From Firmicutes bacterium HGW-Firmicutes-14 (GTDB lineage: Bacteria > Bacillota > Thermincolia > Thermincolales > UBA2595): DNA of 64,000 nt. Under the pieces are notes generated by a model, which ran no database searches, was not told the origin of the DNA, and saw only the letters and a list, made by a program, of their open reading frames with translations. A program made the position numbers and the translations under genes. Within the stretch, counting starts at the first letter, position 1, and the number at the start of each line of letters is the position of its first letter. Below, in pieces: positions 11,302-37,322 of this stretch. The stretch lies in contig PHAB01000017.1 in the NCBI GenBank assembly GCA_002840275.1, positions 1 through 64,000 on the forward strand, in the 5' to 3' direction.

Positions 11302-12981
11302 GTGAAAAGTTTTGGATTAAAACTCGTTGCGGTTTTTGTTTTTATGCTGTTGTGCATATCTACCGGAATCGGGCTGTATTCTTTAAATGCATTGGACAAC
11401 TATTCAAAATCCCTGGTCCGGGACCGGCTTATGGAAAACGTTATTCTTGGCAGACAAATGCTGGATTTCGAATATCCGGGAGAATGGCGGGTTGAGGAGA
11501 ATATTCTCTTCAAGGGTGATATAATGATTGGAGATGAATTCCTTTTCCCGCAAAAGATGATTAGTGAAACCGGAAATGATTTTCTTATGTATCTTGGACC
11601 TGATATGATTATATCCAACCTTGAAGATGCGGACCCCAAACAGTTCAGCATTGACGAAAACACTTTTTCTGAGATCATATTAGAAAATAAACCCCTTGTC
11701 AGAAATCTGGAAATTGCCGGTTCCACCTCAATGGCCGGTATTATGCCGATATTTGATGAGATTGGCCAGGGAGTGGGGTTTTGGGCGGTCAGGATTCCGG
11801 CAGAGGAAATTAGCGCCCTTGTGCGCAAGACCCAGATCCGGATGATGGTGGGCGCTTATATGGCCATGATAGGGACAGGCATAATATTTTATTTTCTGAC
11901 CAGGATTATTGCCGCCCCCATACCGGATATTGTCAGTGGGATGACCAGGGCAGAAAGCGGGGACCTTACAATCAGGCTGGATATTAAGACCAATGACGAA
12001 TTTGCCCTTTTGGGGGATAAGTTCAACAGTATGATCAAGAACATCGAATCATTGATAAAAAGTATAATTACAGTCTCTGAAAGGGTTGCTGCTTCCGCTG
12101 ACCAGCTTAATGATGCGGCAGGAGAATCATCCAAAACAACTGAACAGATTGCTGCCACCATACATATGGTTGCTACGGGGACTGAAGACCAGGCCAAGAG
12201 CGTGGAACAAACCTCCACAGTGATTGGTGAAATGTCCAAGGGGATCCAGGAAGTCGCCGGACATGCCCACACTGTGCTGATCGAATCTCAAAAAGCCAGC
12301 ACAATGGCTGTCGAAGGGGCCGGATCGATACAGAATGCTGTAATTCAGATGAGGGAAATTAACAATAAAGTCAATTCGACTGCTGATTCGGTACGGATAC
12401 TGGGGGAAAAGTCAAAATTAATAGGCTACATCGTAGATGTTATTACATCGATAGCCAAACAGACCAATTTATTGGCTCTTAATGCCGCTATCGAGGCGGC
12501 AAGGGCCGGTGAACAGGGACGGGGGTTTGCTGTGGTTGCCGAGGAGGTCCGGAAGCTGGCGGAACAATCCGGACAGGCAGCCAAGGAAATTGCCGACCTC
12601 ATCCTGGAAATCAGGGACGAAACAGAGAAAGCGGTTGTGGCCATGGAAAGCGGTATCCTCGAAGTTGAAAACGGTACAGGAGTAGTAAATGAAGCCGGCC
12701 AGGCTTTTGACGAAATAGTAAAATCCATTAGGCATGTTTCTGAAAGGATACAGGAAGTTTCTATAGCCGCGGAAGAGATGGCTGCCGGAGCTGAGGAGGC
12801 TGTAGCGGCCATGCAGAATATTGCCAGCATATCGGAGGAAACTGCGGCCAGCGCCGAACAGGTTGCAGCTGCAGCTGAAGAACAGACTGCTTCAGTCCAG
12901 GAAGTAGCGGCTTCGACCACTATTCTCGCTAACTTGTCCGATGAGCTGAAAAAAATGGTGAAGAACTTCAAGGTGGAATAA
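11302..12981 (+). CDS. Methyl-accepting chemotaxis protein
   Basis: A 559-residue transmembrane chemoreceptor. A transmembrane helix at about residues 5-27, an extracellular Cache-type sensor of about 140 residues and a second helix at about 178-200 lead into a HAMP domain and a long coiled-coil signalling region. The hairpin tip is the standard [20 protein letters not shown]. It would pass ligand signals to CheA and CheW and be adapted by CheR and CheB. Start GTG 11302 follows GAAAGGGG. It stands alone, without other chemotaxis genes, after a terminator. The ligand cannot be predicted. Confidence 0.92.
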
Positions 12982-12984
12982 CAA

Positions 12985-13111
12985 GGCAACGATAAATGCT
13001 CCTCCGCTCTGGGCGAAATCTCAATCGGATACGGCTCCCGCGATTCACAGCCAAGCGGGTCACCGACCGATTGACGATTTAAGCCCCGCTTCGGAAACAT
13101 TTATCGTTGCC
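12985..13111. repeat. Long imperfect palindrome A
   Basis: Perfect 14-bp outer arms GGCAACGATAAATG (12985-12998) and their complement (13098-13111) enclose further imperfect pairing (for example TCAATCGG against CCGATTGA) over most of a 127-bp stretch. It begins 3 bases after the chemoreceptor stop. There is no T tract directly after it, so it is not a simple terminator. Part of the 531-bp gene-free stretch 12982-13513. Confidence 0.7.
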
Positions 13112-13138
13112 TCATTGTTTTCTCTTAGCTTTTATAGC

Positions 13139-13164
13139 TAGTGCCCCTTCGGGCAACGTTGATC
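13139..13164. repeat. Copy of the AGTGCCCC...GGCAAC repeat
   Basis: A 26-bp stretch around AGCTAGTGCCCCTTCGGGC and the following AACGTT recurs with three changes at 37283-37306. Here the downstream arm GGGGCACT that makes the other copy a hairpin is missing. Confidence 0.5.
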
Positions 13165-13195
13165 TGATTTTACGTATTAATGTAGTTGTAAATTC

Positions 13196-13431
13196 ATGTG
13201 CTTATGAGGGTTGATATATACAAAAGGATTTGCCTTTGTTTCCCTTGATGCGCCTCTTGGCGAAAACACTGATGGAGCCTTCGGCGAAGGCATGGATGCC
13301 GGAGCCGTCCAGCGGCACGGATGCCGCTTGGACGGGTGAAACCGGAGGCGGAATCAGTGATTTCGCCTTAGAGGCGCACAAGGGAAACAAGAGTAATTCC
13401 GTTGTATATATCAACCCTCATAAGACATTAA
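13196..13431. repeat. Long branched palindrome B
   Basis: Perfect 22-bp inverted arms lie at 13201-13222 and 13403-13424. Inside them the sequences 13237-13273 and 13353-13390 also pair closely, giving arms of roughly 75 nt with few mismatches. The 80-nt centre holds two more hairpins: GCCTTCGGCGAAGGC near 13277-13291, and CCGTCCA...TGGACGG at 13305-13335. The whole folds as a branched cruciform or RNA. The ORFs across it look like by-products of the repeat. No gene is seen. Confidence 0.75.
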
Positions 13432-13513
13432 TCTATACGACGATTTTAAAAGAATTTCAACTAAAACAGGTCAACGTCACTGGATGGGGTACTAGAAAGA
13501 AAAGCTGCCCGAT

Positions 13514-37282: not shown

Positions 37283-37322
37283 AGCTAGTGCCCCATCCGG
37301 CAACATTACCTGAAGGGGCACT
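37283..37322 (+). repeat. Hairpin copy of the AGTGCCCC...GGCAAC repeat
   Basis: AGTGCCCC (37287-37294) pairs with GGGGCACT (37315-37322). The left half matches 13139-13164 with three changes. It lies between the ABC ATPase and permease genes, without a T tract, so it may tune expression between them or protect the mRNA. Confidence 0.55.

Follow-up and report, generated by a model that had tools for sequence, protein, structure and literature searches.

What is the sequence between a methyl-accepting chemotaxis gene (11302-12981) and a convergent gene in the genome of Firmicutes bacterium HGW-Firmicutes-14, and what might it do for the cell? In the window (the whole 64,000-nucleotide stretch of contig PHAB01000017.1 that was analysed), a palindrome at 13196-13431 lies between these two genes, on the same strand as the chemotaxis gene. 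A preliminary description, made from the sequence alone, had proposed that it could be a MITE-like element, a structured RNA or a protein-binding cruciform.

A long palindrome with a branched centre

Near-complete folding of the stretch on itself was borne out: the fold energy of 13166-13461 is -160.5 kcal/mol, compared with -76.1 +/- 5.0 kcal/mol for 200 dinucleotide shuffles (z -17), none of which folded as well. The arms are perfect as described, but the longest pair measures 23 bp and not 22. This pair (13201-13223, CTTATGAGGGTTGATATATACAA, with 13402-13424, + strand) is the sole perfect inverted repeat of at least 16 bp within 1 kb in the 64-kb window, for a chance expectation of about 0.015. 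The two-hairpin centre was also recovered, with hairpins at 13289-13300 and 13305-13335 over a shared closing stem (13277-13284/13342-13349). Both folding and the family alignment presented below place the apical hairpins at 13289-13300 (loop A-UGGA-U) and 13312-13327 (loop A-CGGA-U), the second carried by an outer stem at 13305-13311/13329-13335. The limits of 236 bp are right for the strong palindrome; however, weaker arms, conserved among copies, continue the pairing out to 13138 and 13495. The whole repeat unit is then about 360 bp long (13138-13495, + strand, oriented as the RNA strand) and bounded by outer inverted ends (CTAGTGCCCC... and ...GGGGTACTAG), which pairing and copy alignment place at 13138-13170 and 13464-13495. 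These outer arms are common to copies L002, L003, L006 and L008, and in part to L014.

The core matches the TwoAYGGAY RNA family

A cmscan search of the short stretch with an E-value threshold matched the TwoAYGGAY RNA (RF01731) to 13235-13391 on the + strand, at 38.8 bits (E 8.5e-5) for a cut-off of 43. The match was seen only in this setting; at the Rfam gathering score, the whole window gave no match. The alignment covers model positions 1-168 of 168, closing outer stem included, and brings AUGGAU (13292-13297) and ACGGAU (13317-13322) onto the two loops of the model. Three homologues from sister genera score above the cut-off (L037, 44.9 bits; L062, 44.1 bits; L031, 43.2 bits), and the whole set was therefore treated as members of the RF01731 family. 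Matches to miRNA, snoRNA and P10 models, all far below cut-off, were dismissed as artefacts of the hairpin. That the palindrome is a long-armed, dispersed variant of the TwoAYGGAY RNA is thus well supported. Like the RNA described by Weinberg (2010), it has two adjacent A(Y)GGA(Y)-loop hairpins on a closing stem, aligns with the full-length model and is found in Bacillota. It differs in that this copy scores below the cut-off, the stem is prolonged into a long palindrome with the ends of a dispersed repeat, and the loops of its relatives can have A, G or no base where the model has Y.

The palindrome is a dispersed repeat

Searching the 3.65-Mb assembly at the DNA level returned 32 matching pieces. 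With up to two mismatches allowed, the genome contains the arm motif GGGTTGATATATACAA 25 times, against once for a control. Eight copies have a full core: five of the form seen in the window (C33, C5:4499, C37, C2 and C31) and three in which an additional hairpin interrupts the second loop (C5:36235, C19 and C39). Three short forms are devoid of the branched centre (C23, C15 and C21), and four divergent copies (C26:85700, C5:25162, C19:13822 and C6:36960) were added with RF01731 and with R1, a covariance model built from the repeat cores. Judging by the alignment, the short forms may have arisen by deletion between the two AGGCG(A/G)AA-type repeats on either side of the centre. Aligned copies share the outer inverted repeat CTAGTGCCCC(A/T)TCCGGCAACGTTGACCTGTTTT unless it has been lost, and their flanks are unrelated. 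The outer tips of the repeat also occur alone, as bare 36-bp palindromes; one of these (AGTGCCCCATCCGGCAACATTACCTGAAGGGGCACT) lies at 37287-37322, with similar ones at C6, C12 and C56. Just upstream of the repeat, another palindrome (12980-13117) belongs to a different hairpin repeat, which occurs at 17 places in the genome and matches no Rfam model above cut-off.

Homologues were found in sister genera of the same family, where R1 gave 42 matches in G001 and 24 in G002; some of these read the same palindrome more weakly on its reverse strand, and the copy counts are therefore below these numbers. The sequence is therefore neither unique nor unconserved, with a dozen or more dispersed copies in its own genome and relatives beyond it. 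Comparison of flanks showed homology that typically extends over about 220-310 bp, the full long hairpin, and not beyond. In four G001 subfamilies (L040, L062, L077 and L084) the intermediate arms differ in sequence and still pair. Elsewhere, RF01731 matches number at least 56 in G119, 40 in G242, 35 in G036 and 32 in G052. Three genome-scan matches in other organisms (L071, L074 and L086) were taken as chance, with no core-like sequence around the pattern. In G001, copies L064, L065, L070 and L080 carry a second, unrelated palindrome (CCCCATTTTGTCGGAACGGCGGG...GTTCCGGTAATAAAATGGGG) nested inside a loop of the TwoAYGGAY palindrome. In G002, a region near a TwoAYGGAY copy (L032:1896-2230) matches the cspA thermoregulator RNA at 74.5 bits, below the cut-off of 78.

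The repeat is small, non-coding, multi-copy and bounded by terminal inverted repeats, all features of MITEs. The MITE-like reading finds partial support in the dispersed copies, shared ends and unrelated flanks; clear marks of transposition itself were not found. No direct repeat was seen at the ends of L002, L006, L008 and L014. CTAG is present at both ends of L001 and L003, but this motif is itself palindromic and may thus belong to the inverted ends rather than to a target duplication. Among the 27 tip matches in this one genome, compared by position, no pair had the spacing of a transposase element. Nor was a clean empty site apparent at four sites in genus g5 (joined flanks, G004, G007 and G008). 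Mobility is therefore inferred from the scattering of the copies and the conservation of their ends.

Three species of a sister genus share an orthologous site (L161, L192 and L195) at which the outer hairpin arms are conserved and the tips differ: one species has a TwoAYGGAY tip, the next a different hairpin and the last a stretch of about 40 nt. Tips can thus be exchanged or lost in place.

Among the known dispersed palindromic repeats of bacteria are ERIC, Correia, bcr1 and RPE. Bacterial MITEs and repeats of this type, as well as the double-hairpin elements of fungal mitochondria, resemble the present repeat: they are short, non-coding, intergenic or nearly so, have inverted ends, exist in many copies and form nested palindromes. 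What sets this repeat apart is its conserved, named RNA domain, which repeat families that otherwise differ have in common; neither a clear target duplication nor a transposase partner was found for it. A literature search on nested palindromic elements in Firmicutes returned nothing relevant.

Stems covary while one-strand loops stay constant

We aligned 17 cores from three genomes, in which 95% of the cells are paired. Double changes occur at 23 of the 41 pairs, a number reached in 0 of 500 shuffles, and the covariation score is 0.369, compared with 0.124 after shuffling and at most 0.086 when the partners were slid. By single-sequence folding, exactly two GGA hairpins form in 54 of 63 copies from 13 genomes. 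The GGA loops nearly all read A-N(0-1)-GGA, N being C, U, A, G or absent, and are closed by varying pairs (GGC/GCC, GCC/GGC, GAC/GUC, GUC/GAC, UGC/GCA, CAC/GUG and others). Homogenisation of the arms at the DNA level would explain the paired changes but not the strand-specific constancy of the loops. Together with the RF01731 match, these loops and the strong covariation support a structured RNA. Recent origin, which the preliminary description had considered as one possible reason for such symmetry, is not needed: the best identity between copies is only about 91-93%, and paired changes maintain the symmetry across genera. Both GGA loops are lost in three copies and the second is interrupted in three more, thus not every copy can act.

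The loops resemble CsrA-binding sites

CsrA, a regulator of motility and metabolism, recognises A-N-GGA presented by a hairpin loop. The SELEX consensus of CsrA/RsmA is RUACARGGAUGU with GGA in a hairpin loop, and one CsrA dimer bridges two sites 10-63 nt apart, best above 18 (PMC7652899); A_GGA is the part of the site that is conserved across species (PMC6692469). The two loop GGA of the palindrome start 25 nt apart, inside the bridging range. From motif matches alone, Gardner and Eldai (2014) proposed that TwoAYGGAY is a CsrA-binding sRNA (PMC4333381), which predicts that carriers of the RNA also have csrA, and the co-occurrence of the two is thus a test of that prediction. Among 398 genomes of the phylum, 53 have RF01731 and 292 have csrA (73%). 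A csrA gene is present in 51 of the 53 carriers and in 241 of the 345 non-carriers (Fisher p 5e-6). Kinship was handled by genus and family counts only: the numbers become 40/42 versus 159/229 by genus (p 1.2e-4) and 27/27 versus 80/117 by family (p 1.2e-4; approximate, the family total of 144 being derived from genome-handle numbering). The two carriers in which csrA was undetected are incomplete MAGs (94% and 92%) from a single family, in which their relatives have the gene. Because csrA is so common, the association is only suggestive.

The host genome itself encodes CsrA (E 1.1e-24), between genes recognised by eye, without a profile search, as fliW and flagellin. The palindrome thus combines two features expected of a CsrA-sequestering RNA, loop GGA with a conserved flanking A and a host with CsrA. 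Like CsrB/CsrC and RsmX/Y/Z, it displays A-flanked GGA in its apical loops, spaced so that one CsrA dimer can bridge them. Unlike them, it offers two sites per RNA from many gene copies and stands outside the Gammaproteobacteria, with CsrA binding and transcription predicted only and with fliW also found in the one genome examined. Judged from sequence features, CsrA binding is the most likely function of the palindrome RNA, an earlier proposal now backed by loop constancy and csrA co-occurrence.

Discussion

The results are best explained if the palindrome is a dispersed, MITE-like repeat whose + strand encodes a TwoAYGGAY-type RNA that binds CsrA, and we consider this probable. Transcription would start at a promoter of the palindrome itself or enter it as read-through, although a scan revealed no sigma-70 or terminator consensus nearby. 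The two apical loops of the transcript, with sites 25 nt apart, would bind one CsrA dimer. The long double-stranded arms may stabilise the RNA and present the loops. Dispersed copies would jointly titrate CsrA off its targets, flagellin mRNA for example. They may have spread non-autonomously at the DNA level or through recombination between arms. Against this reading, FliW is a known CsrA antagonist in Firmicutes, so that an RNA sponge is not required there.

The repeat might instead be a purely selfish, non-autonomous MITE-like DNA element, its hairpin serving DNA-level transposition or hairpin-templated copying and its RNA motif without cellular function. Dispersal with shared inverted ends, nested palindromes with exchangeable tips and the high copy number in some genomes (at least 56) all fit such an element, as do the short derivatives, which are dispersed too without GGA loops. 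It would not predict, however, that A-N-GGA loops on one strand stay constant over 13 genomes while stems change, nor that csrA accompanies RF01731, and the lack of a clear target duplication, transposase partner and clean empty site in our searches also speaks against it; we regard it as rather unlikely.

The hairpin might also act in cis within the 3' region of the chemotaxis gene upstream, by stabilising its mRNA, offering a processing site or ending transcription. This would suit the shared strand and the convergent gene on the other side, and the Rfam type of RF01731 is Cis-reg. But 51 copies have no common orientation towards their neighbouring genes (crude ORF calls), and the scan revealed neither a terminator consensus nor a T tract. 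In addition, the main text of Weinberg (2010), which lists TwoAYGGAY only in a table, scores it as 'probably not' cis-regulatory. Such a role thus appears quite improbable. A DNA cruciform bound by a protein, such as a nucleoid or recombination site, is conceivable in that the intrastrand fold is very stable and could in principle be extruded. Nothing specific favours it, though: conservation falls on the apical loops of a single strand and on internal mismatches that every copy retains, neither of which would be expected from DNA symmetry alone, and the copies have no systematic position relative to genes. We consider a cruciform very improbable.

If the CsrA-binding repeat is the correct reading, a wider proposal may be made, which we put forward tentatively and as possible rather than probable: TwoAYGGAY would travel as cargo on mobile nested palindromic repeats, which spread through genomes and jointly act as a dispersed CsrA sponge in Bacillota, a regulatory RNA network built and tuned by a selfish repeat whose tip can be exchanged between repeat families. 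There are hints that the repeat set may serve as genome-wide CsrA sponges in Bacillota bacteria; a search of literature titles and abstracts found no CsrA sponges carried on repeats. The 2014 proposal has now become directly testable, with csrA, fliW and flagellin together in a genome that has a named set of copies. The loop-less derivatives offer natural controls for it, and the phylum-wide co-occurrence fits its prediction. The literature consulted describes CsrA-titrating RNAs for Gammaproteobacteria, whereas for Firmicutes it points to the protein FliW. If the repeats bind CsrA, Firmicutes would gain an RNA arm too, made of tens of dispersed repeat copies, and the spread of a repeat would be linked to global post-transcriptional control.
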